DNA of 64,000 nucleotides from Collybia mongolica (taxonomy: Eukaryota; Basidiomycota; Agaricomycetes; Agaricales; Clitocybaceae): positions 5,704,001 to 5,768,000 of the forward strand of contig JAAXNY010000001.1 of NCBI GenBank assembly GCA_013420905.1. Direction: 5' to 3'. Shown here one piece after another: positions 8,905 through 39,946 of the stretch (the stretch's first letter is position 1; every line of letters begins with the position of its first letter). The notes under the pieces are model-generated. The model was not told the origin of the DNA. It was given only the letters and a program-made list of their open reading frames with translations, and did no database searches. A program made the translations under genes and the position numbers.

Positions 8905-9060
8905 CTTTACAGTCCCCCACATGTCCTTGTGGACTCCGCGAAAAATCCGTGCGGACTCCGCACAGACACCATATAAATAATATAAATCAGTACAAACTGC
9001 AAAAGTCCGTACAAGTCCGCACGGAGTCCGCGCGGACTCCGTGCGGACTCTATATAAATT
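8905..9060. repeat. GTCCGCAC-rich repeat with a perfect 36-bp palindrome
   Basis: The core at 9014-9049 is a perfect palindrome: AGTCCGCACGGAGTCCGC followed directly by its reverse complement. Related GAGTCCGCAC/GGACTCCGCG words occur on both sides. The outer motif CACATGTCCTTGTGGACTC is shared with 30757-30775. Similar tails are found at 28690-28885 and 37190-37310. Confidence 0.8.
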
Positions 9061-14036: not shown

Positions 14037-15253
14037 TGATAGGGCCCGAAATTGTTTGCACTTATAAAGTCAACAAGTAAGGCTATTAGTGTCATTTCTA
14101 ATAACCAAGTAAGCAGTAATAAAGGATTAGAGTCGAGCTCCGAGACGGCTAATCAGAGTGAACTAGTCTAATGGATAATACACTATCAGTACAGAGGACT
14201 ATGAGTACGGTCTATTATTAGTCCTATTCACCATGCCCGGTTACAACCTCGGTGTCTTAGTTCATAAGTAACCGTTGTAGTATGATATCATTAGTCCGGG
14301 GATCATCATTAATAGGAGAAGTAATTGTAAATTCGGGACTTGCACAACCCGATCCTAGTCAGGGGTACTTGGTGTTAACTACCGGAAGTGACGGGACACC
14401 GTGAATAGCAACCAGGACAATCAGGAGGAGTAAACGACAGTGCCGCGCTGTTTTAAATAACAGAGCGCGCGGTCGGGACTTGATAAGAGTTTAGCCAGCT
14501 CTTTCAATATTTGATAAGTAACCAGTAAACGACATAATTGGCACGCATGGCGCGCGCGCCAAGTTGTAGTAGACGCGTCAGTATTGAATACAGATTCTTG
14601 GCGCGCGGGAGCGCGGTTCCGTGTAAAATTTACAATTCCATATGATATTTAGTTTGTACATTATAAATAGACTGTAGATGAGTAGCGCTAAGGCAAGGAA
14701 TCTTGCCCCCACTTCGCGCTACTATAGAGTATACAAATCACATTTGTTAAAAACACTATTGCGTGCCCGAATTAAGGATCAGATTGCTTCAACGTGTCTT
14801 GATTGGAATTGATTGAAGAACTACAGAATTAAAGAGACTTAGTTCACTTGGAACTTAGTATCGTATTGTCCGTTGGAATTACTAGGCACTTGGCCTTAGT
14901 GCACTTGGCACTGTATTGTTTGATAAGTCGCTTGGACTTACAGATCCGTTTGGGATCATTAATAATTGAACGTACACTTGGTACCCAGTCTATTGGATCG
15001 AGAAATATTATAAATATACCTAGCAGGTTTATAAACCTGTGTTGAAGCTTTTGTCTGAATCAAACCCGTTGGGAGATCATTGAAAAGGGCTTTGGCTAGT
15101 ACTATTCAAAGCTTAGTGCTTCTAAGCACTTGAACCCGAACTCAAAACAGGCGATTCCTACTGTTCGTGTGTTGATTGTTAAGTTTGGTGTGTGTGTGTA
15201 AGGGATTACATTTCATAGCATCAGCGCACTTATAGCCCAGGAGCCCCCTTTCA
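14037..15253 (+). repeat. 5' LTR
   Basis: It starts TGATAGGGCCCGAAATTG and ends GGAGCCCCCTTTCA. A TATAAATAG box at 14662-14670 is the likely sense promoter. GCGCGC words are frequent. A (GT)n tract lies near the end (about 15189-15200). A 65-codon open frame inside is not a gene. Confidence 0.95.
14662..14670 (+). promoter_or_regulatory. TATA box in the 5' LTR
   Basis: TATAAATAG lies mid-LTR, as expected for the U3 promoter of the genomic RNA. The same box is in the 3' LTR at 27672-27680 and in several old LTR copies. Confidence 0.6.
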
Positions 15254-15255
15254 TC

Positions 15256-15272
15256 TGGAGCCCACCGCGAGG
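15256..15272 (+). promoter_or_regulatory. Primer binding site
   Basis: TGGAGCCCACCGCGAGG starts two bases after the LTR. TGG at this place pairs with the CCA end of a tRNA, and GCCCACC plus GCGAG fit an acceptor stem and a T-stem. I cannot say which tRNA. Confidence 0.7.
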
Positions 15273-15709
15273 GTTCAGAGTTTTTGAATAGTCTAAAGAG
15301 AGCATCTTTCTTTGAAAAATATTATACCAAGACGAGTAACGTCGTCTACAAATTGAAGTAGAGCGGAGAAAGTTTAGTCAATCTGTCTCAAGAGCCACGC
15401 CCACAAGCCAGCTCGTCAAACAGACTAACTAATCAGCCACTTGCAAGACAAGTAGCTACAAAAACGCGGCAGACTAAAAATTCGCAAAACGCTGGAGTAA
15501 CAGAGTCGTTACCACCTCCTAGGCGAGCGCGCACACGAGGATCTTCACAACCAGCCTTTGGATCTTCAGGACCAAGGCAAGTATTTAGAACTCCAGAGCC
15601 CTTAGGAAACATATCGACTACTAGTAGACCAGTAGCGCGCGGAAGATTGTCCGTAGTAAACCCAGTAGCAAACCCGAACTCGTTAGCTACTCAGAACCGT
15701 TCAGTAATC
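15273..15709 (+). other. Leader between primer binding site and gag start codon
   Basis: The gag frame is open from 15362, but the first in-frame ATG is at 15710. The leader encodes Arg/Pro/Ser-rich sequence if read. It may be 5' UTR or extra gag sequence with a non-ATG start. Confidence 0.5.
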
Positions 15710-17221
15710 ATGACTGAACCCCCTCGTAAATATATGCCCCAACCAGGCGTCCGTGATGCACCAGTATTCAAAGGAAAAGAGCCCACGGGTTTAATCCGGT
15801 TTCTGGAGCGAATGGAGGTCCTATGGAAGGAGTGTAACATTACAAATGATGAAGAAAAGAAGTTAATGTTGGGAAAATACGCAGACCTACAATCAGAGAA
15901 TGAGTGGAGGGCATTAGACCACTATAAGACAGGCACTTGGACGGATTTCAAGACAGAGTTGATCTCTAGTTATCCGGAAGCACTCGATCAAGTAGAAGGA
16001 TCAGTAGCCAAGTTAGAGGCAGTGTGTCGCGCCAACCCACGTATTGGAGTAACCGATGAGGCCGCGCTGAAAAAGCTGAAGCGTGAATTCAAAGCAGAAT
16101 CTATTAAACTCTTGGGAGTTAGGCCACCTATTATCTCTAACCGTGAATTAGTTACCAAGTTCTTGGGATGTCTAGACGAAGTCTTCAGATCCCAAGTACA
16201 AGGAAGGCTAACCCTGCTAGGGAATAATCAGTCTAATGCTACACAGGCAGGACAAGCCGTTGCTACAAACAACCGAGCAGATCCTAATACTATTGCCGAA
16301 GCCGCCGCACTCGCGCGACGAAAAGGGGATCAGTACGATCTGGAGGAAGTTATAGCAACTGCAATCAGCATTTCTGAAGGTGTAGCCAACATGAATATTC
16401 CAGACACAAATAGATCGTTTATAACGTCCGTAACAGCAACAGCAGCGCCCAAAATCAAAGTAGAGATGGATGAAATAAAACAACAAATAGTTAATTTGTT
16501 AGACCGTCTCCAAGTAAATGAGAAGAATACGAGGAGTGGATTCGAGGATGTAATGAAAGCGCTTCAACAAGCAACTGTTCAGAACCATGCCACGAATAGC
16601 GCACCCCAGCAGCATCAGTATCAGAATCAGTACGGAAAGCCTAAAGAAGGACAACCGCAAAGACCAAATGCGTATAAATGTCACTACTGTTTTACACCCG
16701 GACACTTCATAATGGCCTGTCCCGAGAAACAGAAACATTTTGAGGAAGGGAAAATAAAAACCAACGCAAATGGAGGAGTATGCTTACCAGACGGATCATA
16801 TATTCCAAGAGAACCAGAAACGGTATCATTGAAAGATAAAGTGGAACACTTCCATTCAAAGAAGGTAGCGGCCCTTTATTACGGAGATGTCACAGAAGGA
16901 CCCGCTCCAGGAGTATTGTCCGTTATGCAGTCACATAATGCAGTAGACAATAGTAACGACATTGGAACCTTGAAAGCCATAATGGCACAAATGGCACAAT
17001 TTCAAGCGCAACAAATGTTAGGACAACAGAGCGCGCAAACCGCGCTGCCAGTAGCGCCTCAGATGCAGAAACAGGAATATATAAATAATAACTATAATCC
17101 TACGGCAAAGAGCGCGCCGAACCCTGACATAGTAGCCTTACAAGCACAAATGAGTACTTTATTAGGGCAGGTAGCAGAACTCAATAACCAAAACAAGGTT
17201 AAAGAGTCGGGTTTCAATTAG
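15710..17221 (+). CDS. gag: Gag polyprotein (capsid and nucleocapsid)
   Basis: From the first ATG (MTEPPRKYMPQPG) to TAG at 17219-17221 it is 503 aa. The N-terminal half has the helical look of retrotransposon capsids (LIRFLERMEVLWKECNITND, WRALDHYKTGTWTDFKTELI). A zinc knuckle CHYCFTPGHFIMAC (C-x2-C-x4-H-x4-C) sits at about residues 323-336 and should bind the genomic RNA in the particle. The C-terminus is Gln/Asn-rich. A slippery heptamer lies four bases before the stop, so a fraction of ribosomes probably continue into the protease frame. Confidence 0.9.
   Translation: MTEPPRKYMPQPGVRDAPVFKGKEPTGLIRFLERMEVLWKECNITNDEEKKLMLGKYADLQSENEWRALDHYKTGTWTDFKTELISSYPEALDQVEGSVAKLEAVCRANPRIGVTDEAALKKLKREFKAESIKLLGVRPPIISNRELVTKFLGCLDEVFRSQVQGRLTLLGNNQSNATQAGQAVATNNRADPNTIAEAAALARRKGDQYDLEEVIATAISISEGVANMNIPDTNRSFITSVTATAAPKIKVEMDEIKQQIVNLLDRLQVNEKNTRSGFEDVMKALQQATVQNHATNSAPQQHQYQNQYGKPKEGQPQRPNAYKCHYCFTPGHFIMACPEKQKHFEEGKIKTNANGGVCLPDGSYIPREPETVSLKDKVEHFHSKKVAALYYGDVTEGPAPGVLSVMQSHNAVDNSNDIGTLKAIMAQMAQFQAQQMLGQQSAQTALPVAPQMQKQEYINNNYNPTAKSAPNPDIVALQAQMSTLLGQVAELNNQNKVKESGFN
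17209..17215 (+). promoter_or_regulatory. Probable -1 ribosomal frameshift site, G GGT TTC
   Basis: In the gag frame the codons read TCG GGT TTC AAT TAG, so GGGTTTC fits the canonical X XXY YYZ pattern. After a -1 slip, reading continues CAA TTA GGT CCG ATG, which is exactly the open protease frame. I did not identify a downstream pseudoknot by eye. Confidence 0.75.
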
Positions 17222-17226
17222 GTCCG

Positions 17227-18432
17227 ATGAAGGAGGCTAAGGAACACGCTAGACCTACGACTAGGTCGCGTTCCAAGAGACAGCCAGAGGACCGAAGTAA
17301 AAATAGAAATAGTCGTCAAGAAAGTAACAATTCAGAGAGTAGTCAGGATAGTAGTGAAGAGGAGTTGGTAGCGCCGTCTCCTAGTAAAAAGAAAGTAAAA
17401 TTTGTTGAACCATCAGTAAAGTCCCCAGTACGAAAAGAATTACCCTACATCGATGTGCCCGTGGTACCCTACATACCCCGGAGAACGGAACGCAACCCTG
17501 AACCAGTTGATCCGCTACCTAATTTTAACACTAAGCGCGGTCCGACTTATGAAACTAAGTCCCCGATAGAAGTAAAATTAAAAGGTGGCGATATAATTGC
17601 TAAAGTGTTAGACAACCCTATCACATTGACCACGGGAGAGTTAATGGGCTCGTCAAAAACCATTAGAGATGGAATAAAGAATATTGTAACTGCCAGACGT
17701 AAGTCCCTTACCCAAAGGGACGCTAACTTGCAAATAAACGGAATAGATGAGGAAGACGTCTTACCCTTTGGAGGGGACTGGGAACTTGATGATAACTACT
17801 TACGGCATGACACGCTACCAGTAGAGTCAATCCCATTCCAGTCTTTCTTCATCTCAGAGTATGACCGCGGCGGAATACCTAAGGGATCTATAATATGCGG
17901 GGACCCAGTCCTACAGTATTTAGAATCTTTACCAGCCGGGGAAGAGCCCAAACAGTTGTATGTAGCAAAAGAATCGGCCTCTTTGCGCGCAGTATATCCA
18001 GTAATAAATGGGGTAGGAACGGAGGAATCTTTATTAGATGGGGGATCCCAAATAGTATCAATGGCTAAACAAACGGCTTTAGACTTGGATATTTCATGGG
18101 ATCCGGACGTTGTCATACACATGCAGAGTGCTAATAAACAAGTGGAGAAAACAGCGGGATTAGCGCGCAATGTCCCTTTCTTGTTTAATGACATGGCCAT
18201 CTACCTCCAAGTACATATTATAAATTCACCCGCATACAAAGTATTGCTCGGGAGACCGTTTGATACGCTCACGGAAAGTCAGATCAAAAATGCTCGGGAC
18301 GGGGGACAAGTAGTCACTATCACGGACCCTAACACGGGACGAAGGTGTACTATTCCTACCCATGCAAAGGGATCACCGCCTAAGCTGTTGAAAAGACAAC
18401 CGGAGCAGGATTTTCGGCCTTCAATGAATTAA
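17227..18432 (+). CDS. pro: Protease ORF with basic N-terminal extension
   Basis: The ATG at 17227 is six bases past the gag stop, but the frame is already open from the slippery site. The first 75 residues are rich in Arg/Lys/Ser/Glu ([16 protein letters not shown]). The retropepsin core follows: the active-site motif is DGGS (LLDGGSQIV, about residue 270) where DTGS or DSGS is usual, and LLGRPF (about 340) fits the distal Gly motif. It should cut Gag and Pol inside the particle as a homodimer. The last 49 nt overlap the pol frame. Confidence 0.85.
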
Positions 18433-21400
18433 TCCAAAGTGATCAAGGAGAGCTAGCCGTAGAAATTGCTGAAGATGAGGACGGGAACTTTATTATAACG
18501 GGTTATAGACACCCTACTGATAAGCGGAATTTTGGTCACAAAGAACTTAGAGATGTCTTTTTGTCTAGAAGTGATGTAAACATGAATAGTACAGTACCTG
18601 AACGCGAATTACTAGCCACGTACTTGGCTTCCGTAGATGAGCGCGATGGACCAGTAATAAACTACGAGCAGAACAGTAGGGACCCAGCAAGCACACCCAC
18701 TAGACCGCTGACATACGCTCAAGAACAGCCCATGATCAATAAAGCTTTAAGTAAATTAAAGCAGTGGCAAATTGGCACAAACGAGCGCGGTCTTGGAACG
18801 GCAACAAGTGAAAAGTGTAATATTGAGACCATGGATCAGCTAGTAGGAAAGAAGTATAAACCAGTACATTTGAAAACAAAACCAACACTGGCGGACCTGC
18901 CTGATAAATTTAGAATTATCAGAGATATAAAGGGCGACCCTTTAGCAGCCCTACCAGTTCTAACGCCTAACCCACCTCCGTTTAAACCAACCGGGAGGTA
19001 CACTGAGGAAAGGCGCGCGGAATTCCAAAGAGTACACGAAGAAGAAAGCTTCTTAAAACCTAAAGAGATGGATATAATCCACGACTTTATGTGCAAACAT
19101 AATGATGGTTTTGCTTGGAATGATAGTGAGCGCGGTAGTTTTAAGAAGGAATATTTTCCTCCCGTCGAAATACCAGTAGTCCCACATACGCCGTGGACAG
19201 AGAGGAACATTAGAATCCCACCAGGAATCTATGAAGATGTTTGTAAAATCATCAAGACAAAAATTGATGCAGGAGTCTATGAGAGATCCAATTCATCATA
19301 CAGGTCTAGATGGTTTACCGTATTAAAGAAAGGCCCAGGAAAGAAGCTTAGAATTGTACATAGTCTAGAACCACTGAATGCAGTCACAATAGCGCACTCG
19401 GGTCTACCACCCGCTACCGAAGAACTAGCAGAACACTTCGCAGGGCGCGCTTGTGGCGGAATGATGGATCTATATGTAGGATACGATGAGAGGCCTTTAG
19501 CAGAAACCTCGCGCGATCTAACCACGTTCCAAACACCATTTGGCGCGCTGAGATTAGTAACACTCCCTATGGGATGGACGAATTCTGTTCCAATATTTCA
19601 TGACGATGTCACGTACATCCTACAGGATGAGGTACCACATGTCACAATACCCTATATTGATGATGTACCCGTGCGCGGTCCAGCAACGCGTTACGAACTA
19701 CCGGACGGAACAGAAGAAGAGCTACCTGGTGCTCCAGGTGTTAGGCGCTTCTTCTGGGAACATATGCAAAATGTAAATTGCGTCGTACAGAGAATGAAGT
19801 ATTCTGGAGGAACATTTTCAGGATATAAGTCTATGTTATGCGCAAGTGAAATTCTAGTGGTAGGACATAGATGTACATATGAAGGACGGAAACCTACTAC
19901 AGATAGAATCGGTGTAGTTGAAAGATGGGGACCATGCAAAGATGTCAGTGAAGTACGCGCTTACATGGGAACTATTGGTGTATGCAGGAATTTCATTAAA
20001 GACTTCGCCCGTATAGGTCAACCAATTCAAAAGTTAACTAGGAGTAGTGAACCTTGGATATGGGGGCCTGAGCAAGAAGAAGCGCAGCAGCTATTATTAG
20101 ACGCACTTAAAAATAGCCCCGCGCTCCGTCCAATTAATTACACCTGGAATACGCCAGTAGTACTGTCAGTAGATACGTCATGGAAAGCTGTAGGCTACTA
20201 TATCTACCAGGAAGACCCTGATATACCTGGAAGAAAGCACTATGCTAGATTTGACTCGATAACTCTGAATGAGCGCGAAGCGCGCTTCTCACAACCCAAA
20301 CGAGAGCTATTCGGATTAATGAGAGTTCTAATGGCATGTTATTATTGGTTTATTGGAGTACGAAATTTGGTAGTGGAAACGGATGCAAAGTACATTAAGG
20401 GGATGTTATCAAACCCAAGTTTAGGACCTAATGCAACGGTAAATAGGTGGATCGATAGGATACTTATGTTCCACTTTACTTTGGTTCATAAAGCTGGTAA
20501 AGGCTTTGGCCCAGACGGTCTGTCAAGACGCGACGCGCGGCTAGGGGATCCTGTCTACCCGGACCCAGACGATGGTTACGACGAACCCTCAGGTCCTTTA
20601 AGGTTTATCAACCCAACGGAAGGATTGGATGACCCTTTGGAACTGTCAGACTTTAAAGAGGAGATCGACACGCGCGGCGGATATCTATTCCAACTTGCAA
20701 AGGAAATCTCTGATTTTGAAGTGGAAGTAAACAATGCCTGGGCTGGTGAAGCAGCATTTATCGGAGAAGTAAAACAGCACTTAGGTTTAGGACGGTTCGG
20801 TATTCAAAGAGAAGCTTATCTAAAGCAACTTGTAAATACTACTGTCATACCCAATGAAAAGTTTAAATACGACCCTAATGTAAGGGAAGTATATGATGAG
20901 TCTAAACGGACACCTACGGCACAGGAACAGGATAAAAACCTACCTTTAATAAAAGAATGGTTAAAAAGACCACAAAAGAGACCAAAAGGAATGACAGATC
21001 GCGCCTACCTAAAGTTTGCAAGGCAGGCGTCTAATTTCTTTTTGGATCCAGAAGGCAGGATGTATAGGAAAAATATCGATAGCGCGCACCAGCTTGTTGT
21101 TGATAAAAATCACCGAACATATATGATGAAGGCGTCACACGATTCTGTTGGACATAGGGGTTTCTATGCAACAAAATCTTTAATAGATAAAAGATTTTGG
21201 TGGCCAGAAATGGAACGCGATGTATCATGGTATGTGAAGTCATGTCACATCTGTCAGACAAGGCTTTTAACTTTGTTGAGAATCCCTCCTGTTATAACCC
21301 ACACACCGTCTATATTCCAAGTATTACATGCGGACACCATGTATATGAGCCCATCGTCTAACGGTTATAAATACATTGTCCAAGGAAGATGTGCGCTGTC

Positions 21401-22427
21401 TTCATGGATGGAAGGCGCGCCCCTCAAATCTGAGGACGGCAAGACCTTGGGAAGGTGGCTGTTCGAAGAAGTAATTTGTAGATGGGGTTCTCTAACGGAA
21501 ATTGTAACGGATAATGGTCCTGCCTTTGTCGCAGCCAAAGCGTGGCTGGAATCCAAGTATGGTATTACAGGAATAAGTATATCACCATACAATTCCAAAG
21601 GAAATGGGATCGCCGAGCGCGCACATTGGGATGTGCGTCAAGCTGTCTTCAAAGCTACAGGTGGTGATGTAAAGAAGTGGTACTACTTCTTCCACCATGT
21701 AATGTGGGCTGACAGGATTACTATACGGAGAGGGACGGGTTGCTCCCCCTATTTTATGATTACGGGCGCGCACCCAACCTTACCGTTAGATATCATTGAA
21801 GCCACTTGGTTAGTAAAGTTACCAGGAAAAATATTGACTACAGAGGAACTCATTGGGTTTAGAGCGCAGGCTCTAGCTAAGCACGTCCAGCATGTGGCCG
21901 ATATGAGGAAACGTATCAATATAGAAAAACGAAGGAGACTATTACAGTATGAGAAGGATCACAGCGCGACCATCAGAGACTATGATTTCAAACCAGGAAG
22001 TTTAGTACTAGTTAGAAATACCGAGGTCGAAAGTTCGCTCGATAAAAAGCTGAAGCCACGGTACCTGGGACCAATGATAGTCCTGAGACGAAACCGCGGG
22101 GGAGCCTATATTGTTTGTGAAATGGATGGATCGGTGTGGCAACATAAAGTGGGGGCGTTTAGGGTTATTCCCTATTTTGCTAGGAGTACAATTGAACTGC
22201 CGGATAATCTGCAAGATCTAATAGACATCTCTAGCGAAACATTAAATGCTTTAGTGGAATCGAAAGATCCCGCTAATAGACAAGTTTATAAGGAGCGTGA
22301 CTATACCTTTGACAGAGTCCAATTGGATCAGTCCGATTCAGAGTCAAGCTCTAGTGAAAACACTGAAGAAGGGATAGCGCCGGCGCTACCACAAACTACT
22401 ATGTCACACCGGAAGTTGCATAAGTGA
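18384..22427 (+). CDS. pol: Pol: reverse transcriptase, RNase H and integrase
   Basis: The frame opens at 18384 inside the protease end and stops at 22425-22427 (1,347 codons). The first ATG is late (18582), so entry from the protease frame by a further -1 shift is likely, although I find no canonical heptamer in the overlap. RT shows [10 protein letters not shown] and the catalytic YIDDVPV (19652). RNase H shows [14 protein letters not shown] and VETDAKY (D-E-D). Integrase has an H-x4-H...C-x2-C zinc domain (SHDSVGHRG...CHICQ) and catalytic [14 protein letters not shown] and GIAERAHW with the last Asp-Glu spacing close to 35. The C-terminus is acidic and lacks an evident chromodomain. Confidence 0.95.
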
Positions 22428-22573
22428 TAAATCAGTATGAAAACAGAAGCAGTAAAGACAGTGTAAGCAACGAAGCTAAGTAGTAAGGACAGTGTTAAAC
22501 CGAGTAAAGACAGTAATACAAAGGAGCGTGGGGAGGGACACCATAACTAAGGAGGAAGTTAATTGGACTACCC
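22428..22573. other. Spacer between pol and the convergent antisense gene
   Basis: 146 bp with repeated AGTAAAGACAGT-type words (22440-22520). It must hold 3' ends of the pol message and of the antisense gene, but no clear signal is visible. Confidence 0.4.
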
Positions 22574-23951
22574 TCAAGCAGATATGAAGTCGTCTTCAAC
22601 CTCGGGCAAGGGCACATCAGCCGGAGCTACCTCCTCTTTATCATTGTCATCCTGGTCATGGACTTTGGTAGCGCTTGCAGTGGCAGCCTCGTCAGAGCCT
22701 CCCTCCAGAGCGGCCTCGTTCATTAGACCGTTGAGGCGAGTAACCTCGTCCATAGTGGCGTCACGACGCTTCAATAAGAAGGACACTGTATGACTGATCT
22801 CCTCCAACTCAGCGCGGTAGTTTAAAAGCATCCTACCGAGGGCTTGCTTGGTGTGTGACAAGGGATCGCCCGCGTCAGCAATCAAGCGCGCCCGCGCTAA
22901 GACTACATCGTGCTCCTTGGAGGGACGGAAGTCAATAAAGACACGAGTATCTGATACACAGTCAGTATAAAAATAGAACCATCTATTATTAGAAAATGTA
23001 CCCTCAGCAGATGCCTTTGGATCTTCATCCGGGGTGTCCTGCCTCGTACGCTTTTTGGGACGAAGAGTGCTGCCGCGGTTGAGCTCAGAACGCTTACCGT
23101 CCTGTAGGAATAAGAAACAAAGTAATAGACAGAGCAAAAACAAGAATGGGTACCTTGATGGCAGCCTTTTCAGCCTTAGTCCTTTTGACACGGGGAACCT
23201 TAATGTTCTCCTTCTCCTTGCGACTACGGGTGATTGGTCCTTCACTAAGGAGACGACTAGTCACTGGCCCAGAGACAGTAGCGCTAGCCGTAGCGCCGGA
23301 ATCAATGACCATATTCTTGAGTAAAGAAGAGACGCCATTGAGTATGTCGCGCACTGACAGCGCGGTAGCTAAAAAGAAACATACCGAGTCAGTACCAGAC
23401 ATTTCAATGTCACCGTCATATTCACCGCCAGCAATGACCTCGCCTGGAATAGCGGGACTATCCGCATCACCACCAGTAGCAGGGACCTAGTACCAGAAAA
23501 CCATGGTTTAAGAACAGTACAGTGCAAGATAAGGTAAAAAGCGCGCACCGCGGTTTGAGACAGGTGCTCGGTGCGGACCTTTTCACGGTGACGGTGAATA
23601 GCGGCAGTAAGAGTCACAATGTTGCGGTAGACGGGCTCTTGAAGTAACTCGGGGTATACATGTTGTAGTCCCTGGAATGCTTTACGGACGCCAAAGATAA
23701 CATTCTGCCAGGACCGCTCCGTCAAAACCATTTTGGACTCAGTCAGGAGTAGCTGTAAATTGTAAAAGTTGTTACGATAACGGCGTATATAAGTTAATTG
23801 GTAAAAAGTGTACCGCGGTTTCGCCTAACTTCCGGACGCTGACCCTTTGTTCAACAAGGGTGTCCATTGATAAACGAGCTTGAAAGGTGTGCCACTGAGC
23901 TTGGACCATCTTGAAGTTCTCGATATCTTGATAGTTGGGGGGGCTAGTCAT
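22574..23951 (-). CDS. Antisense accessory gene B of the LTR element, four exons, 400 aa, unknown function
   Basis: Exons are 23951-23814, 23752-23549, 23486-23154 and 23101-22574. Introns of 52-62 bp are all GT-AG and in phase 0. The start is MTSPPNYQDIENFKMVQAQW. Two basic stretches look like nuclear signals (RVKRTKAEKAAIK at the exon 3 end, PKKRTRQD in exon 4). The C-terminal exon has a helical region (KQALGRMLLNYRAELEEISH) and a very acidic end. There is no match to gag, env or known enzymes that I recognise. It lies tail-to-tail with pol and downstream of gene A on the same strand. That all four exons are intact argues for selection or very recent capture. Confidence 0.8.
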
Positions 23952-24646
23952 AATGATGCAGAGGAAATTGATTCTTCGAACCAGAACGTTGTAAAGAGAG
24001 TATAATAGAGTTGGGCGATGTCTTGGGACAAAAAGCACAGCCAGTGCCCTTTTTATACCTCTACGACTAGAGAAGTGCTACCCAGTCTCTCATTCGTTGC
24101 GCGCGTTCTATCCCCAGAAAAATCTATACATTTCAACTGAACAGGTCCGAGACGCGTGCCTAATTGAAATGCTGGGCCCAATTAAAAAAAAAGGAGCTCC
24201 GTAAAAATTCATGTGGAGCGCGGCAGTGTCCGCATGACAACTGGGACAGTTGTTATCAGTGTTGAGGGGGAGATGGGTATAAGCAAAATCGAATTGGAAA
24301 AACCTTACCAAGGTTACAAGGATTGAAATAGATTGTCTATAAAAAGTCAGTGATTGCGCCACGGTTTTTAATGATCGAGAGAATTGCACCAGAATTAAAC
24401 CGTACTATTTATAACTTAAGTAGCCGGGGCAAGGGCGGAAGCTTTCTTATGAAGACAATAGAACCACAGCCAAATCAATAGCATTGTTTATAGTCCGAGG
24501 GACTGTATGTAAGACAAAGTGTTGGACTTCAATTAATAAAATTGAAGCCCAACGAAAGGCGGGGGAATAAGTGATATGTAAGGGCACTAGGGCCCGGGAA
24601 AACACATATAGAAAGAAAACGTAGGTGGGGGGGGGGCGCGGCGCGG
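23952..24646. other. Spacer between the two antisense genes
   Basis: About 700 bp, fairly AT-rich with an A-run at 24184-24192 and a G-run at 24626-24636. It probably contains the promoter of gene B (minus strand, near 24000-24060) and the terminator of gene A. A 93-codon open frame on the minus strand (24389-24108) has no supporting feature. Confidence 0.4.
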
Positions 24647-26596
24647 CTACTCCTCCTCGCTGTCAGGCACGGACGCAGAAGATCTTGACGACGAAGAACT
24701 GTCATCAACCTCTACTTCTTCTTCCAAGGGCGGCCAAGGGAGATTCTGGAAGTCCGCGTAGAAGAGGAGGGCGCTCTCCGTGGCTGGCGTAGTCAGCAAG
24801 AGGTTTTGAAGGCCCTCCAGGCCTTCCTCCTCGTACAACCTACCAATGGTGCCAACTATGCGCGCCAACAAGGAGTCGCGCATTTCAAGCGCGCGGTTAG
24901 CGGCCTGAATGACCTCCGCGGCAAGGGTGTCCGCGTCGCCGAGCTGAGCATAGGCTTCAGCAACCGCTAGTAGAATAAGTAAAATCAGTAGTAAACAAAA
25001 AGACGGAAAGAAGATGGCTTACTAGAAATGCCCGCACCAAGCATGGGCCCCAGATCCTCACGGAGCCTAGCACGCTTCTGGGGAGTGAGGCTGAAGCTGC
25101 ACTTCCCCTTCTTGGCGGTGGCGCATTCCACGCACGGTTTACCCCAACCGTTGAAGGTGCACTCAATGTCGCCGCGGGTGGCGCACATCGTGCAAGGATA
25201 GCCCACCTAGTAAAAATGATCAGTAACAAGAAATAAAGTAGTAATAAACATACGGAAGAGCGCCGCGGCGCAAGGTCAGCCAGCAGGGAGGTAATGGGGG
25301 ACTGTAGCGGCGTCAGCTCCCGGTTGGGAACCAGCGCGTGCTTGCGGCGTGTCGCCTGTGCCCTATCCCTAGAGCGAGTGGTCTTACGCGACCGACGAGG
25401 AGAAGGGGCCGCGGGAGGCAACAACTCCGCGAACCCCTCTTGAGCCAACTGGCGGGCGATCTCATCATCGAAGAGCCGAAGTTCAGGGACTTCAACCTTC
25501 ACCAGCGGCTGCCCAGAGGACTAAGGAGATAAAGATGAGTAAAAGTAAATGACTTCAAGAGAGAAAAGAGACATACCGGGCCTGCTTCCGAGGGACGCGG
25601 CGCGGAAGCACTGCCAGTCCCCTGGGCGCGCGACATGTCGGACTAGAATTTTGAAATCAAGTCAGCAATAATGTGAAACTCGTAAAGTAAAGGATATACC
25701 TGGGGAACCGCACGGCCTTTGCCCTTGGACCCAGCTGTACGCTTCCGCTTGAGGGGCTATTAAAATAAGTCAACTACCGAAGAAAAGTAATAAAAAGCAG
25801 TAATAAACGAACCGCGGGTACCAAGACCGGGGAGCGCGCCGGCAAGGGCGCGGCGGACCAACTGTCCCGGTACTGATGGTAACGGCGCGGTGCGCCAACC
25901 ATGCGAGGAGGGACGAGGAAAGTATCCTGAAAGATACTTTCACCATTGTCGCGCTCGAAGCGCGACCCCACCTGGTCCAGGACTTGCTCCACAGTGGGAG
26001 CCTGGCCCTAAAGTAAAAGGTAGTCAGCTTGACAAGGGCAGGCAGAGTAAAGAAGTAAACAAGTCACTTACCAGAAGAATGGAATTGTGGCCCAGGTCAG
26101 TCGATATGACCGTGCGCCAGGAAGACCACGAAGCCTCGCGCGCGTCGACTGGGATGCGCATCACTTGAAGGTGAAGCGCGCGCAGGAGGAGAATAGCCGG
26201 ATATGGCAGCGAAAAACGCGCGCCACGGACCACGCCAGTGATGGCATCCTGAGACCAGTAAATAAGTAAAAGGTTTTAATAAGTAAAAGATGGGCGTACG
26301 ATGAGCATGGAGCAGTGATCGACGAAGTCAATCAACTCGTCGAGGTCAAGGGGGCCCTGATGGTCCATACGGGGCGCGAGTTCCTCGGCCATAATAATCC
26401 ACCCTTGCTCCATGGCGACAAAGACATCGCCCTCGGCATCTTCAAGGAGGTCGGAAAATGAGGGGACCGGCTGGTCCACATAGACCATAGTGGGGGAACG
26501 GCCCTCAGTCGGTAGAATCGCGGCAGAGAGCGAGAGAGACAGCGCGGAAGGCGAGCGCAGAGCACGAGCCATGGCGGAAGTAGAAGTGGAAGACAT
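24647..26596 (-). CDS. Antisense accessory gene A of the LTR element, eight exons, 520 aa, Zn2Cys6-like cluster
   Basis: Exons are 26596-26300, 26248-26072, 26007-25813, 25756-25700, 25642-25577, 25520-25254, 25206-25023 and 24966-24647. All seven introns (47-64 bp) are GT-AG and frame is kept throughout. The start is MSSTSTSAMARALRSPSALS. A basic region (RRSRKTTRSRDRAQATRRK) in exon 6 precedes a cysteine cluster at residues 358-389: C-x2-C-x7-C-x8-C-x2-C-x7-C. This is close to the fungal Zn(II)2Cys6 DNA-binding pattern (usually x6 in the first loop). The tail is Glu/Ser-rich. I infer a nuclear nucleic-acid-binding role, perhaps in regulating or targeting the element; that is not shown. Confidence 0.82.
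25117..25195 (-). other. Zn2Cys6-like cysteine cluster in gene A (domain span within exon 7)
   Basis: Key residues are C358, C361, C369, C378, C381 and C389. The second half reads GKPCVECATAKKGKC, with Lys after the fifth Cys as in DNA-contacting loops of binuclear clusters. Confidence 0.6.
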
Positions 26597-27036
26597 TTCT
26601 GTTTGAAAAGGTTGGAGCGTTTGAGCGATGCAGATAGCAAAGAGATTTAGAAATGGGCTATAAAGTCCAAATTGTCTAAAACTTAGCAAGGACGCGAGCT
26701 TTTTAAAACGCACAACCCTGCATTGCGAAGCTCTAAAGAACAAACAGGAGTACCGATCTCTTGCTGAAGTGTCAGAAACATAACGAGAAAAATGTCCAGA
26801 TGACTGAAATATCTGTAAAGCGATGTCCAAATGTCAAGTACTCTCTCAGGAGACGTATATAACTGTCACGATCCTGATGGGAAGTAAACCTCTGGGCTCG
26901 ATCCCAACATCGCGCGCCTACCTGTCTAAAAGCGGAACCGTTGTAACATTGTACTGAAAGATTAGACGCGTGCAGACCCGAAGTATTGGACCAACCTGCC
27001 GGCAAAGAGAGACTGAGGACAGTCTACATTTGTGGT
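26597..27036 (-). promoter_or_regulatory. Probable antisense promoter region of gene A
   Basis: 440 bp without a supported gene between the gene A start and the polypurine tract. It must drive minus-strand transcription if gene A is expressed. I see no clear TATA box close to the start. Confidence 0.35.
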
Positions 27037-27046
27037 ATGGGGGAGA
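27037..27046 (+). promoter_or_regulatory. Polypurine tract
   Basis: ATGGGGGAGA lies directly before the TG of the 3' LTR, the place where plus-strand DNA synthesis is primed. Confidence 0.75.
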
Positions 27047-28263
27047 TGATAGGGCCCGAAATTGTTTGCACTTATAAAGTCAACAAGTAAGGCTATTAGT
27101 GTCATTTCTAATAACCAAGTAAGCAGTAATAAAGGATTAGAGTCGAGCTCCGAGACGGCTAATCAGAGTGAACTAGTCTAATGGATAATACACTATCAGT
27201 ACAGAGGACTATGAGTACGGTCTATTATTAGTCCTATTCACCATGCCCGGTTACAACCTCGGTGTCTTAGTTCATAAGTAACCGTTGTAGTATGATATCA
27301 TTAGTCCGGGGATCATCATTAATAGGAGAAGTAATTGTAAATTCGGGACTTGCACAACCCGATCCTAGTCAGGGGTACTTGGTGTTAACTACCGGAAGTG
27401 ACGGGACACCGTGAATAGCAACCAGGACAATCAGGAGGAGTAAACGACAGTGCCGCGCTGTTTTAAATAACAGAGCGCGCGGTCGGGACTTGATAAGAGT
27501 TTAGCCAGCTCTTTCAATATTTGATAAGTAACCAGTAAACGACATAATTGGCACGCATGGCGCGCGCGCCAAGTTGTAGTAGACGCGTCAGTATTGAATA
27601 CAGATTCTTGGCGCGCGGGAGCGCGGTTCCGTGTAAAATTTACAATTCCATATGATATTTAGTTTGTACATTATAAATAGACTGTAGATGAGTAGCGCTA
27701 AGGCAAGGAATCTTGCCCCCACTTCGCGCTACTATAGAGTATACAAATCACATTTGTTAAAAACACTATTGCGTGCCCGAATTAAGGATCAGATTGCTTC
27801 AACGTGTCTTGATTGGAATTGATTGAAGAACTACAGAATTAAAGAGACTTAGTTCACTTGGAACTTAGTATCGTATTGTCCGTTGGAATTACTAGGCACT
27901 TGGCCTTAGTGCACTTGGCACTGTATTGTTTGATAAGTCGCTTGGACTTACAGATCCGTTTGGGATCATTAATAATTGAACGTACACTTGGTACCCAGTC
28001 TATTGGATCGAGAAATATTATAAATATACCTAGCAGGTTTATAAACCTGTGTTGAAGCTTTTGTCTGAATCAAACCCGTTGGGAGATCATTGAAAAGGGC
28101 TTTGGCTAGTACTATTCAAAGCTTAGTGCTTCTAAGCACTTGAACCCGAACTCAAAACAGGCGATTCCTACTGTTCGTGTGTTGATTGTTAAGTTTGGTG
28201 TGTGTGTGTAAGGGATTACATTTCATAGCATCAGCGCACTTATAGCCCAGGAGCCCCCTTTCA
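27047..28263 (+). repeat. 3' LTR
   Basis: Same length as the 5' LTR and identical wherever I compared them. It contains the TATAAATAG box at 27672-27680 and ends CCCCCTTTCA before the CCGC target duplication. Confidence 0.95.
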
Positions 28264-28889: not shown

Positions 28890-30334
28890 GTGCAGATGTC
28901 AATTTCTATATTAATCCACATGAGCATCATGCTAAACTTGCAGAGCTCTGTTTTTCACTCATGGAGAAACACCTTCATCAGGATATGCATGGCTTTGAAG
29001 GCCTGGATAAATTTGAAGCCAATACTGAAATGGGAGATAAAAGAACAAAGAATGTAACCTATGAACTAAAGTATGCTTGCATGTATTGGGCAGCCCACCT
29101 GAGGAAATATGGCTATCATAGCTCAGAAAGGCCGCTTCCATTACTCAATAAGTTTGCTTTTACTCATCTACTACATTGGATTGAGGTTCTTAGCCTGGTT
29201 GGAAAAGTTGCATATCCAGTATTGAATGTTGCACACCAGGTATTAGTGAGTTAGCCTTTCAATTCTTAAAAGCCTATCTGATGCAGCTGTTCAGATACAG
29301 TGGAAAGTCTCAGGGATGTCCAAACTAATGGAAATACTTAGGGATGGGTGTTGATGTGTTGCTAAGTTCTATGAGACTCTTAAAGTATCTGGGGGTCACA
29401 TCTATTATTCTGCTTTGCCTTTTATGCCAGTAGAAAGTCAGATCTACAAGGCTTATAAAGGGTCTGTCAGAGATATAGCAACTGTATTGCAAGGGGATAA
29501 AGAGTGGAATCCTCTGCTAGCTTCTCTGGAGGGCCATTCAGATGAAGTTTATTGTATTGCATTCTCACCTGATGGCTCCAGGTTGGCTTCTGGCTCTTCT
29601 GACAGAACTGCCAAGCTTTGGGATGGGCTCACAGGAGCTCACACTGCAACTCTGGAGGGCCATTCAGAACTGTTACATTCTCACCTGATGGCTCCAGGCT
29701 GGCCTCTGGCTCTTATGACAAGACTGTCAAGCTTTGGGATGGGTTCACAGGAGCTTATATTGCGACTCTGAAGGGCCATTCAGACCGTGTCAGAACTGTT
29801 GCATTCTCACCTGATGGATCCAGGCTGGCCTCTGGCTCCTATGTTGTCAAGATTTGGGATGGATTCACAGGAGCTCACATTGCAACTCTGGGGGGCCATT
29901 ATGACTTGATCAGAAGTGTTACATTCTTTCCTGATGAATATGGCTTCTCTTATTTGCTCATTTCAAAAGATTTCAGTGGAGTCATCAAGTACTGGAATTA
30001 TTCCACTGGTGATCCTATGTTACTTTCTGGTCCTACTCCCCAGCTCTCTTCTTCAACTATCCAACCTGATGTTCCTGGTAGTGCTATTCCCCCTATTACC
30101 CCTTTATACTCTATGGCAACTAGCACAGCAGACCTGACTGGTTTGCTACCCATTCCATATACTCTGAAAAACAATACTATTCAGCATGTTGCAAGCTCTA
30201 CTACACTCCTCCAACTTCCTTCTGAATTTCATGGTCCACTTGACCATGCATTCTATTCTCACTCTTTAGCTATGGGATATATAAATGGAAGGGTTATCAT
30301 CATACATCTTCCCTCACTACCCTATGTAGTCTAG
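28890..30334 (+). pseudogene. NACHT-WD40 (NLR-like) protein, 5'-truncated and frameshifted
   Basis: Sequence begins inside the linker of the family (HHAKLAELCFSLMEKHL), then YACMYWAAHLRKYG and LLNKFAFTHLLHWIEVLSLV. A likely intron starts at 29240. The next part has a stop or frame break near 29355 before HIYYSALPFMP. WD40 repeats follow from 29530. About 14 bases are missing near 29674, which shifts the frame. The C-terminal tail resembles that of the gene at 2-715. No NACHT domain is present upstream, where a SINE-like repeat ends. Confidence 0.8.
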
Positions 30335-30735
30335 TTCACTTGGCTCCAAGTTTTCATAGCCAGATTTATATAAATAGTCAGATACATTCCAATCTATAGC
30401 AGTCCCCTGCATGACAGAACAAGTGCCCTGAGCAATACTGATATAAAAATACATCATTCCCCTCAAATTCATTTTTTGTGCAAGTACAAGTCATTTGTAT
30501 ATCCCTACAAAGAACAAAGCAGAGGGTTGGATATATACATATGTCATATGTCATTGGAATCACTAGAGCATAAATTAATATTAGTTCCACAGATGACTGG
30601 GAGATTGCATGTGAATTGATGTGATGTGACACATTCCACATTTTGGGTGTCCATGTACCAACATCATCCCAGCACCCCTTCCAATCCCTGGCCATGCACT
30701 AGTGGCTCCACATTGCCATACAGTCCCCATTTCAC
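30335..30735 (+). repeat. Downstream flank duplicate of 716-1085
   Basis: Same motif order as the flank of the first WD40 gene. CG dinucleotides of that copy are TG or CA here (TGATGTGATGTGACA). Confidence 0.7.
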
Positions 30736-30845: not shown

Positions 30846-31028
30846 TTTACTATTAGTGTACAGTACTTACTGTCTTTCTTATAACATGATAACAAATACT
30901 ATATATTGATAATAAATACAACATTATAGTAATCTAATATGGGTAGGGGCCCCTGCTGCCCCCACTGCCCCTGTTGCCCTTGTCACCATTGTTTTCCACT
31001 CCAGGTTGTGCAGGATGGGCCCCCACAG
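30846..31028. other. Short spacer, nothing recognised
   Basis: AT-rich, then a C-rich stretch with GCCCCTGCTGCCCCC at 30948-30962. Confidence 0.35.
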
Positions 31029-32244
31029 TGAAAGGGGGCTCCTGGGCTATAAGTGCGCTGATGCTATGAAATGTAATCCCTTACACACACACACCAAACC
31101 TAACAATCAACACACGAACAGTAGGAATCGCCTGTTTTGAGTTCGGGTTCAAGTGCTTAGAAGCACTAAGCTTTGAATAGTACTAGCCAAAGCCCTTTCC
31201 AATGATCTCTCAACGGGTTTGATTTAGACAAAAGCTTCAACACAGGTTCAAAAACCTGCTAGGTATATTTATAATATCTCTCGATCCAATAGACTGAGTA
31301 CCAAGTGTACGTTCAATTATTAATGATCCCAAGCGGATCTATAAGTCCAAGCGACTTATCAAACAATACAGTGCCAAGTGCACTAAGGCCAAGTGCCTAG
31401 TAATTCCAATGGACAATACGGTACTAAGTTCCAAGTGAACTAAGTTTCTTTAATTCTGTGGTTCTTCAATCAATTCCAATCAAGACACGTTGAAGCAATC
31501 TGATCCTTAATTCAGGCACGCAATAGTGTTTTAACAAATGTGATTTGTATACTCTATAGTAGCACGAAGTGGGGGCAAGATTCCTTGCCTTAGCACTACT
31601 CATCTACAGTCTATTTATAGTGTACAAACTAAATATCATACGGAATTGTAAATTTTACACGGAACCGCGCTCCCGCGCGCCAAGGATCTGTATTCAATGC
31701 TGATGCGTCCTCTACAACTTGGCACGCGCGCCATGCGTGCCAATTATGCCGTTTACTGGTTACTTATCAAATATTGAAAGAGCTGGCTAAACTCTTATCA
31801 AGTCACGACTGCGCGCTTTGTTATTTAAAACAGCGCGGCACTGTCATTTACTCCTCCTGATTGTCCCAGTTGCTATTCACGGGGTCCCGTTGCTTCTGGT
31901 AGTTAACACCAAGTACCCCTGACTAGGATCGGGTTGTGCAAGTCCCGAATTTACAATTACTTCTCCTATTAATGATGATCCCCGGACTAATGATATCATA
32001 CTACAATGGTTACTTATGAACTAAGACACCGAGGTTGTAACCGGGCATGGTGAATAGGACTAATAATAGACCGTACTCATAGTCCTCTGTACTGATAGTG
32101 TATTATCCATTAGACTAGTTCACTCTGATTAGCCGTCTTGGAGCTCGACTCTAATCCTTTATTACCGTTTACTTGGTTATTAGAAATGATACTAATAGCC
32201 TTACTTGTCGACTTTATAAGTGCAAACAATTTCGGGCCCTATCA
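31029..32244 (-). repeat. Near full-length gypsy LTR, reversed, without target duplication
   Basis: It starts TGAAAGGGGGCTCC and ends GGGCCCTATCA, so both LTR ends are present (1,216 bp). Flanks CACAG and ATGGC do not match, so it is not a simple solo LTR with preserved duplication. Divergence from the young LTR is moderate. Confidence 0.85.
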
Positions 32245-32600
32245 ATGGCATTGTCAGTGGCCTGGGTAGTGGCAGTGGCGGCACTGGCATGATCCAGCAC
32301 TGGCCGTTTTTCTTGCTGTCATCCCCATCATTCTTAGTTGTCATCCTTGTGGTGGTGGTTGTCATCTTTGTCCTCATTCTAGTTGTTGTCCTTCATTGTT
32401 GTTGTCATGCCTTTGTTGGTACAGCTGCTGCTGCTGCTGTTGCCATCATGGCTGCAGGTCTTGTTGTCATGGTTGCTGCTGCTGCTGCTGCCTCCATTGT
32501 TGTTGTTGTTGTTGCTGTTGTTATTGTTGTTGTTGTTGTCATCTTCCAGGTGCGCCAGGGCACCCTGGGTGTTGGCAGCCATGTCCTTCTCATCTCAGGT
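32245..32600 (-). pseudogene. Fragment related to the start of the gene at 11649-13474
   Basis: The minus strand reads an Asn/Ser-rich start (AHLEDDNNNNNNNSNNNNNN). The DNA block GTTGTTGTTGCTGCTG and the GCTGCAGGTCTTGTTG motif recur at 42.02-42.24 kb and, more weakly, at 13.37-13.43 kb. No intact frame leads to the rest of that gene. Confidence 0.45.
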
Positions 32601-34872: not shown

Positions 34873-34942
34873 TAATCATGCTTACGTTTGCCAACTATGC
34901 TGTTAGAGCTAACAGCATAGTTGGCAAACATAAGCATGATTA
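34873..34942. repeat. Long hairpin, 34-bp arms with a 2-nt spacer
   Basis: The left arm TAATCATGCTTACGTTTGCC... ends in CTGTTAG, then AG, then CTAACAG... to ...CATAAGCATGATTA. Only one mismatch (C/T) was found in 34 bp. Confidence 0.85.
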
Positions 34943-38237: not shown

Positions 38238-38714
38238 AATGGCCCTCTACCTCAAGTATTGTAGGACTGGGTTGCCACATATTATAGATCCCTTAGGTAT
38301 TCCACCATGGTCATACTCTGAAATGAAGAAAGACTGGAATGGGATTGACTCCACCAGTAGTGTCATGCCTGAGGTAGTTATCATCAAATTCCCAGTCCCC
38401 CCCAAAGGGTAAGGTGTCTTCCTCATCTGTTTCATTTATTTGCAAGTTAGCATCCCTTTGGGTGAGGGATTTATGTCTTGCAGTTACAATACTCTTTATT
38501 CCATCTCTAATGGCTTTTGATGAGCCCATTAACTCTCCTGTGGTCAATGTGATAGGATTGTCTAACACCTTTGCAATTATATCGCCACCTTGAATTTTTA
38601 CTTTTATCAGGGACTTAGTTTCATAAGCTGGACTGCACTTGGTATTAAAAATAGGTAGTGGATCAACTGGTTCAGGGTTGCTTTCCATTCTCTGGGGTAT
38701 GTATGGTACCGCAG
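38238..38714 (-). pseudogene. Gypsy protease-ORF fragment (part 1), reversed
   Basis: The minus strand matches about 17455-17920 of the intact element ([30 protein letters not shown]). Stops and a frameshift near 38360 break it. It continues beyond a solo LTR at 39947. Confidence 0.85.
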
Positions 38715-39946
38715 TGATAGGGCCCAAAATTGTTTGCACTTGTAAAGTCAACAAGTAAGGCTATTAGTATCATTTCTAATAACCAAGTAAATGGTAATAG
38801 AGGATTAGAGTTGAGCTCTGAGATGGCTAATCAGAGTGAACTAGTCTAATGGTTAATACACTATCAGTACAGAGGACTATGAGTATGGACTATTATTAGT
38901 TCTATTCACCATGCCCAGTTACAACCTTGGTATCTTAAATCATAAGTAACCATTGTAGTATGATACCATTAGTCCAGGGATCACCATTAATAGGAGAAGT
39001 ATGTAATTGTAAATTCAGGACTTGCACAACCCAAGTCTAATCAGGGGCACTTGGTGTTAACTACTGGAAGAGACAGGACACTGTAAATAACAACTGGAAC
39101 AATCAGGAGAAGTAAAAGACAGTGCCACACTGTTTTAAAAATAACCAAATGCACTGTCAAGCATTGATAAGAGTTTAGCCAGCTCTTTCAATATTGGCCA
39201 AGTAATAAATAACAACATAATTGGCATGTATGGCATGTGTGCCAAGTTGTAGAGGATGAGTCAGCATTAAATACAGACCCTTGGCGCAGGAGGGCCTTGT
39301 TCCATATAAAATTACAATTCTTTATAATATTTAGTTTGTACACTATAAATAGACTGTAGATAAGTAGCGCAGAGGCAAGGAATCTTACCCCCACTTCAAG
39401 CTACTATAGGATATACAAATCATATTTGTTGAAACACTATTGCACACACAAATTAAGGATTGGATTGCTTCAATTGTCTTGATTAGAATTGTCTCAAAGC
39501 ATTTGGCTAAAGAGATCACAGAATTGAAGAGCTCAGTTCATTTTGAACTTAGTACTTGTATTGTCTGTTGGAATTATTAGGCACTTGGCCTTTGGTGCAC
39601 TTGGCACTGTTGTTTTAAAAGTCACTTGGACTTATAGATCCACTTGGGATCATTAATAATTGAACATACACTTGGTACTCAGTCTATTGGATCAAAAGAT
39701 ATTATAAGAATATACCTAAGGTCTTAACACTTGTGTTAGGGCTTTGTCCTAATCAAACCCGTCGAGAGATCAGTGAAAAGAGCCTTGACTAGTACTATTA
39801 AAACTAGCTTTCAAGCACTCAAACCCAAACTCAAAACAGGCAATTCCTACTGTTTGTGTGTTGATTATTAGATTTGGTGTGTGTGTGTGTGTAAGAGATT
39901 ACACTTCATAGCATCAGCACACTTATAGCCCAGGAACCCCCTTTCA
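38715..39946 (+). repeat. Solo gypsy LTR with 4-bp target duplication GCAG
   Basis: TGATAGGGCCCAAAATTG to CCCCCTTTCA (1,232 bp). GCAG flanks both sides (38711-38714 and 39947-39950). It is strongly CpG-depleted relative to the young LTR (GTCGAGCTCCGAGACGG became GTTGAGCTCTGAGATGG). Confidence 0.9.

Follow-up and report, generated by a model that had tools for sequence, protein, structure and literature searches.

Retrotransposons are expected to shed introns with every RNA cycle. The window analysed here, a stretch of 64,000 nt from the Collybia mongolica genome (contig JAAXNY010000001.1, positions 5,704,001 to 5,768,000), contains an LTR retrotransposon with two multi-exon genes on its antisense strand, and raises the question of whose genes these are, how their introns were kept and what their products may do. 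All coordinates are those of the window. The host element consists of the following features:

14037..28263, plus strand: complete Ty3/gypsy-type LTR retrotransposon (paired LTRs, flanking CCGC, Pfam domains)
14037..15253, plus strand: 5' LTR (100% match to the 3' LTR)
15256..15272, plus strand: primer binding site (PBS), complementary to the tRNA-Lys 3' end plus CCA
15362..17221, plus strand: gag ORF, stop to stop, with a CCHC knuckle (zf-CCHC_2, E 8.5e-6, 25.9 bits, cutoff 27)
17203..18432, plus strand: protease ORF, stop to stop, overlapping gag and pol (gag-asp_proteas, E 0.013, below cutoff)
18384..22427, plus strand: pol ORF, stop to stop, with reverse transcriptase (RT), RNase H and integrase (Pfam)
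27047..28263, plus strand: 3' LTR (100% match to the 5' LTR)

The two LTRs are identical across 1217 bp and CCGC, a candidate target site duplication (TSD), flanks the element on either side, which bears out the preliminary description of the element as young. The complement of the PBS is the end of three tRNA-Lys genes called by ARAGORN with introns allowed (none was called in bacterial mode), and the sequence GGGGGAGA, as expected of the polypurine tract (PPT) in the Ty3/gypsy class, precedes the 3' LTR. In pol, the RNase H and integrase zinc-binding domains scored above their Pfam cutoffs, and RT and rve below. The element thus has the LTRs, TSD, PBS, PPT, gag and PR-RT-RH-INT order of Ty3/gypsy elements, the order being read with PR, RT and rve matches below the Pfam cutoffs. 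Pol has 7 Pfam matches at E ≤ 1 and none of them is a chromodomain, so the element was not classed as a chromovirus.

Between pol and the 3' LTR, gene A was rebuilt and compared between copies:

24647..26596, minus strand: gene A, encoding 520 aa in 8 exons, with a six-cysteine cluster in its protein
26596-26300, 26248-26072, 26007-25813, 25756-25700, minus strand: exons 1-4 of A
25642-25577, 25520-25254, 25206-25023, 24966-24647, minus strand: exons 5-8 of A
25099..25194, minus strand: six-cysteine cluster of A, in exon 7 (C-x2-C-x7-C-x8-C-x2-C-x7-C)

The model of 8 exons and 520 aa that had been proposed for this gene was recovered unchanged, stop-free and with every intron bounded by GT and AG. 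A phase-0 intron lies 4 residues ahead of the first cysteine of the cluster. With its six cysteines, two CxxC halves and basic residues before the last cysteine, the cluster is like Zn2Cys6 (GAL4-type) domains. The Zn2Cys6 consensus has x6 spacing after the first CxxC, whereas A has C-x7-C at this place. No Pfam family was matched by A at E ≤ 1, Zn_clus (PF00172) included, and exon 7 searched separately at E ≤ 10 gave no Zn_clus match with HMMER, whose filters discard most weak matches. Sequence searches of the PDB with A and the S cluster (gene S is described below) reached a best E of 0.43. Among 7996 candidates from 5.8 billion proteins, none matched A at E ≤ 1e-3, perhaps because each exon of a fungal gene was predicted as a short ORF of its own that fell outside the length limits; pol, in contrast, had 983 relatives in the protein collection (120 listed). 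A profile of A exon 1 built from three sequences found one protein, P0121, 97% identical, among 58 candidates. IMG/VR, scanned with A and pol, gave no match.

Gene B lies between A and pol and was likewise rebuilt and compared between copies:

22574..23951, minus strand: gene B, encoding 383 aa in 5 exons, with a basic central region and no matching Pfam family
23951-23814, 23752-23549, 23486-23154, 23101-23002, 22950-22574, minus strand: exons of B
22951..23001, minus strand: fourth intron of B, 51 nt, overlooked in the earlier model (disrupted in other copies)
24047..24057, minus strand: TATAAAAAGGG (TATA) box, candidate own promoter, at roughly 0.1 kb upstream of the start codon of B

B had been described as an antisense gene of 4 exons and 400 aa. 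Its orientation, its GT..AG boundaries and its stop-free frame with the introns given all held; the exon count and length did not. In 11/28 other copies the stretch 23001-22951 is interrupted by an in-frame TAA, and in 1/28 by a 1-nt deletion; these 12/28 disrupted copies rule out the longer model in favour of 5 exons and 383 aa: that the 51-nt intron can be read through in the window copy is a matter of chance. A further intron near 23384 was also considered and was rejected: the copies holding that stretch have no indel there, and no new in-frame stop was noticed in them. Pfam, scanned with the 400-aa reading, returned no family for B at E ≤ 1. The TATAAAAAGGG box is kept in all 27 of the other aligned copies holding the stretch, one of them with an additional A.

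The element family occupies about 90-110 places in the genome, fragments counted. Among 91 places matching B, 83 are antisense behind pol, none is on the same strand and 8 have no integrase match, so that B is antisense to the nearest integrase in 83/83 places with one within 3 kb; conversely, 27/110 integrase places have no B within 3 kb. Most copies therefore have coding sequence antisense to gag-pol in the space that separates pol from the 3' LTR, the arrangement termed aORF-3R.

For the comparison, 31 copies were fetched, with young ones over-represented. A was intact in 22/28 copies and broken in 6/28; the same numbers were obtained for B under the 5-exon model, counted where half or more of its CDS is present. 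GT..AG was kept in 307/307 introns examined. In the 22 intact copies of A, a single indel event (12 nt) fell in exons and 26 in introns; the corresponding counts in the 22 intact copies of B were 0 and 5. The dN/dS comparison between copies that the preliminary description had proposed gave ratios well below 1 in divergent copies for both genes: 0.14-0.26 for A in 14 divergent copies (0.33 in L013 and L034) and 0.19-0.31 for B in six, with 0.02-0.22 for the 3' part of pol in six. The partial copy L039 gave 0.55 for B, not significant by permutation (271/2000). Near-identical copies gave scattered ratios from few changes (0 to 0.86 for A, 0 to 1.15 for pol). Between A and its counterpart in L026, 19 nonsynonymous changes were observed against 43.8 expected in context-matched permutations, 0/2000 of which were as low. 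Judged by these codon changes, purifying selection acts on the coding frames of A and B with a strength of the order of that on pol.

Two sister gypsy families, with about 47% integrase identity, both carry a spliced antisense six-cysteine gene behind pol:

L041, antisense behind pol: gene S, 3 exons encoding 506 aa
L042 and L043, antisense behind pol: gene T, 3 exons encoding 677 aa

S and T are homologues (BLASTP 4.5e-9 and 4.6e-5), each has a phase-0 intron 5 residues ahead of the first cysteine, and the match tables place 7 S and 6 T places on the strand opposite to their integrase in all cases. A has the same combination of antisense position behind pol, six-cysteine cluster and intron shortly ahead of it. 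No significant similarity was found between A and S (hhalign probability 0.4%), and A reached a best E of 0.82 when run by tblastn on the T loci, whereas S matched them at E 0.002-0.02. Profile comparisons of B with S and with A gave no match, neither the S loci nor the T loci contained anything that matched B, and Pfam gave no useful match for S. The T copies L042 and L043 differ at 11 nonsynonymous and 10 synonymous codons, with little sign of constraint. At L040, the S model stops after 85 aa and about 0.5 kb of extra DNA lies inside the gene relative to L041. A possible fourth family has a decayed distant relative of the antisense six-cysteine gene beside it. A common origin of A with S and T is suggested by the cysteine pattern, the preceding intron and the position, at a sequence similarity that is not significant. 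We give an even chance to the broader proposal that a non-chromoviral fungal gypsy clade ancestrally carries an antisense, multi-intron six-cysteine regulator, that the antisense position allows spliceosomal introns to be kept indefinitely and that one lineage added B as a second spliced gene.

In the reading that we consider probable, the retrotransposon has A and B as its own accessory genes, which are antisense to gag-pol, spliced by the host, and probable regulators. The preliminary description had them as host-type genes being moved by the element. That they are captured host genes, maintained for a host function and not for the element's, would suit their short introns, TATA box and own start and stop codons. 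No homologue of A or B outside the element family was recognised in the genome among the matches listed, however, and a search with the zinc exon at E ≤ 10 gave 110 matches of graded identity that all appear to be copies or fragments of the element, a judgement by identity that includes places with no integrase match within 6.5 kb (24/108) or no B match within 4.5 kb (26/108); 2 places share the strand of their paired integrase, and 1 lies on the strand opposite to its paired B. As the antisense arrangement is also common to two sister families and the constraint on A and B is of pol's order, host cargo is unlikely. Functionless leftovers of decay or chance would account for the six broken copies of each gene and for the higher N:S ratios in old copies, but are extremely unlikely given that each gene is intact in most copies of a sample weighted to young ones and that nonsynonymous changes between subfamilies are in strong deficit.

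Two further readings keep a function for the region. The antisense RNA, and not the protein, could matter by regulating the element through double-stranded RNA, as is mentioned as one possibility for plant antisense ORFs in the text available from PMC7264820. Codon-level constraint, the scarcity of indels in exons specifically and the conservation of splice sites are not predicted by this reading, and we regard it as quite unlikely. Regulation by antisense RNA may act in addition to the proteins. The position between pol and the 3' LTR is that of env, as had been pointed out, and A and B could be env-like or particle-associated structural proteins that are antisense by happenstance. The position stands, but such a role is very unlikely: none of the 19-residue windows in A, B, S and T exceeds KD 1.6, leaving no candidate transmembrane stretch, and the antisense orientation blocks expression from genomic RNA.

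In the accessory-gene reading, the sense genomic RNA would carry the complements of the introns of A and B, which would thereby escape splicing and survive reverse transcription. Antisense protection of this kind, already put forward in the preliminary description, predicts that introns are kept in all copies, and all those examined fit. Transcription of B probably depends on its own TATA box; that of A is probably driven from the DNA that separates its ATG from the 3' LTR. The cysteine pattern and basic stretches of A, which has no Pfam match, suggest nucleic-acid binding; A would probably be a zinc-cluster-type nuclear protein controlling the element, with LTR transcription, the balance of sense and antisense or integration targeting as proposed points of control, and B probably a partner or second regulator. 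We infer, from sequence features, that the two may regulate or target the element, as had been suggested. The model resembles HBZ in HTLV-1 or gene23 in maize Grande.

Antisense additional ORFs are known from the plant gypsy elements Grande (gene23), RIRE2, Retand and PvRetro13; in the text available from these sources, the Grande gene is reported to have its own promoter and a nuclear protein, DNA binding is proposed for the TRP28 domain of Retand, and the word "intron" occurs 0 times in either main text that describes the ORFs (PMC7264820, PMC11963269). The Collybia element differs in having two genes, 11 introns in total, a six-cysteine cluster and no Transposase_28 match (TRP28, PF04195), as no Pfam family was found for A or B at E ≤ 1. 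Further genes or ORFs are carried by LTR elements of bdelloid rotifers and by Terminons, for which the text available describes no multi-intron antisense pairs (PMC5408684, PMC6431247). The A/B pair is a variation on the known antisense accessory genes of plants and Boty. Boty is an ascomycete element. Boty-like gypsy elements of Botrytis cinerea have an additional antisense gene, brtn, in the accounts available (PMC8365987, PMC7264820). It is one gene as described there, compared with two here, and is likened here by description. HBZ, of which a spliced form exists, is a bZIP protein of an infectious retrovirus, whereas A has a cysteine cluster and a putative regulator role. The accessible account of HBZ in HTLV-1 presents an antisense regulator transcribed from the 3' LTR (PMC3736048). 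The suggestion that a spliced pair in a fungal element might be new is narrowed by brtn, a single antisense gene already known in a fungal element; no fungal element with a spliced antisense gene pair was found among the literature matches listed, from a scope that excluded most subscription journals.

The role of antisense accessory proteins is left open for plant elements in the text available (PMC7264820, PMC11963269), and this high-copy family offers many natural replicates for testing it. Such genes would be hidden by repeat-masking, or annotated repeatedly as host genes. A lineage that keeps 11 introns in two genes under selection has found a way round intron shedding.

The window copy is a Ty3/gypsy-type LTR retrotransposon whose gag, protease and pol are three overlapping ORFs, with a primer site matching tRNA-Lys and GGGGGAGA preceding the 3' LTR. 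Short introns, and WD40-like repeats adjoining the element, suggest that the source is probably fungal. The element and its surroundings were annotated as follows:

14037-28263, plus strand: element, with identical 1217-bp LTRs and CCGC at both flanks
17203-17221, plus strand: gag/protease ORF overlap, -1 frame; GGGTTTC at 17209 lies in slippery-heptamer register
18384-18432, plus strand: protease/pol ORF overlap, -1 frame, containing no slippery heptamer of that sort
26596-24647, minus strand: gene A
23951-22574, minus strand: gene B
31028-32244, 38712-39946, 41199-42022 and 8092-8300, various orientations: further LTR copies or fragments, ~83-97% identical, from this family or a relative of it
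29355-30673 and 1-1054: stretches of WD40-like repeats, judged by eye, flanking the element on either side, with 77-83% DNA similarity to each other
53619-53919: self-complementary stretch, 301 bp at 78%
34873-34942: self-complementary stretch, 70 bp at 94%
9014-9049: self-complementary stretch, 36 bp, perfect

Gene A was rebuilt as claimed in the preliminary description (8 exons, 520 aa, minus strand, between pol and the 3' LTR). For gene B, the proposed 4 exons and 400 aa could also be rebuilt without a stop, but other copies show an intron in the last 'exon': there, the stretch 23001-22951 starts with GT and ends with AG, and of 28 copies, 11 have a TAA in frame within it and one has a deletion of 1 nt. 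The four-exon model was therefore dropped in favour of 5 exons and 383 aa. The A protein has basic stretches and a cysteine cluster, and the B protein a basic middle region; neither gave a Pfam match. Neither has a candidate membrane segment, so an env role is unlikely.

Copies were fetched from the 45.97-Mb assembly (26 contigs): the 20 topping the B match list and 11 picked for divergence or truncation, a sample of 31 that leans to young copies. At least half of the gene was present in 28 of 31 copies for A and likewise for B; each gene was intact in 22 of its 28, and both were intact in 18 of the 31. Intact A copies showed one indel event in exons (12 nt) and 26 in introns, many of the latter with lengths not divisible by three, and several common to copies through shared descent; for intact B copies the events numbered 0 and 5. 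GT..AG was kept in 307/307 introns examined, a set limited to introns >20 nt in the copy concerned and to genes retaining half or more of their CDS; one B intron was gone along with a truncated copy end.

NG86 ratios were calculated with the window copy as reference. The dN/dS comparison proposed in the preliminary description gave values well below 1 for A in 14 divergent copies (0.14-0.26); two truncated copies (L013 and L034) gave 0.33, and near-identical copies, with a handful of changes each, scattered from 0 to 0.86. For B, the seven L026-type copies gave 0.04-0.13 on few changes; six copies of greater divergence gave 0.19-0.31, and the partial copy L039 gave 0.55. For the pol 3' part, six divergent copies fell at 0.02-0.22, and near-identical ones, on 1-5 changes, ranged from 0 to 1.15. 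Because CpG sites can mutate fast, the observed changes were redistributed, in 13 of the 31 copies, over sites matching in base and CpG state (2000 permutations). For A, none was as low as observed in each of the nine copies with >50 changes; the near-identical L010 and L011 gave 150 and 14. For B, the counts were 0 (L036, L031, L029), 1 (L037), 3 (L035), 10 (L032), 12 (L009 and L026) and 51 (L011), and 271 in partial L039, which is not significant. Judged by these copy-wise ratios, A and B are under constraint of the same order as pol, and the sequence comparisons establish both as coding genes of the element.

Copy L031 differs from the window copy at 30-36% of CpG sites and 6-13% of other sites, which suggests methylation-linked decay of old copies; the CpG excess is weaker in L036, and none is clear in L026.

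The family is abundant: a 1-kb element piece gave at least 40 DNA matches at 96-100% (40 of 116 candidates scored) and the zinc exon (A exon 7, carrying the six-cysteine cluster) gave 110 rows, counts that take in fragments and are lower bounds. Placement was scored on 91 B places (from 206 matches listed), 110 of 139 integrase rows (at least 84% identity; rows from sister families were left out, as were weak ones and second pieces that were short) and 108 of the 110 for the zinc exon, all but two partial ones at 68-73%. Among the matches listed, 83 of 91 B places had an integrase within 3 kb (8 had none), and in all 83 B lay on the opposite strand, on the expected side; 27 of 110 integrase places lacked B within 3 kb. 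Zinc-exon places had B within 4.5 kb on the same strand in 81/108 cases, on the opposite strand in 1 and not at all in 26; an integrase within 6.5 kb was antisense in 82/108, on the same strand in 2 and absent in 24.

Divergence from the window copy, taken in 300-nt blocks over 22400-26900 in 14 copies (L009, L010, L016, L018-L022, L025-L027, L033, L036, L037), changed in block-wise jumps: blocks that differ by 2-10%, within A or immediately past its stop, stand next to almost identical sequence. Across 26600-25101, which takes in most of A, five copies (L026, L009, L018, L025, L027) were 2-8% different, and four of the five were also 7-10% different at 24800-24501; L020, L021 and L033 were 7-8% different at 24800-24501, 3-4% in the next block and at most 1.7% elsewhere. 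The pol 3' part of these eight copies was 99.7-99.9% identical to the window copy. Block jumps beside near-identical pol indicate recombination between co-replicating subfamilies, for which template switching would be the simplest route; on this pattern, A variants evidently move as modules.

Two further families, integrase relatives at 47-48% identity, were sampled by two copies each (S, L040 and L041; T, L042 and L043), and in each family an antisense gene follows immediately after pol:

L041 3136-1463, minus strand: gene S, 3 exons, 506 aa; interrupted in L040
L042 3513-1370, minus strand: gene T, 3 exons, 677 aa; open in L043 too
Cluster of A: C-x2-C-x7-C-x8-C-x2-C-x7-C
Cluster of S: C-x2-C-x7-C-x8-C-x2-C-x6-C
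Cluster of T: C-x2-C-x7-C-x7-C-x2-C-x6-C

Homology between S and T shows at either end (BLASTP E 4.5e-9 and 4.6e-5), with hhalign giving 95% across the first ~100 residues, and they share two phase 0 introns at corresponding places, the last 5 residues ahead of the first cysteine; intron 6 of A, also phase 0, lies 4 residues ahead. A's cysteine pattern occurs once in the window, apart from a poly-cysteine repeat reading at 32429-32539, and in none of 100 mononucleotide-shuffled windows. A has no significant similarity to S or T, which counts against a common origin. S matches came from 7 places, two of them with a stop, and T matches from 6; as judged by reading the match lists, every one lies on the strand opposite its integrase row. 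Of the seven T-type integrase rows, the one at C16:22794 was without a T match. A distant relative of T with stops (G000:C9:2063734-2064105; 31%, E 3e-10) adjoins a 34% integrase copy at C9:2065038, a locus that possibly represents a fourth family. In L044, a far more distant gypsy copy (26% integrase, E 2e-5; chromodomain-like stretch by eye) that serves as a weak control, its LTRs not being located, the six-cysteine pattern was absent and the first 1.9 kb behind pol held no antisense ORF of 100 aa.

Plant elements with additional ORFs lying antisense in the stretch from pol to the 3' LTR form an established class, and such ORFs have been reported in Boty of Botrytis (PMC7264820, PMC11963269 and PMC8365987). 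The window element differs from these in its multi-exon structure and two genes, in the codon-level selection demonstrated from copies, and in its sister families, where a cysteine-cluster gene sits at the corresponding position; a literature search covering few subscription journals listed no such multi-exon two-gene antisense arrangement among its matches. A and B would be expressed, and may act in the nucleus and in regulation. The reading as a whole, including a regulatory, nucleic-acid-binding role for A, is considered rather probable.
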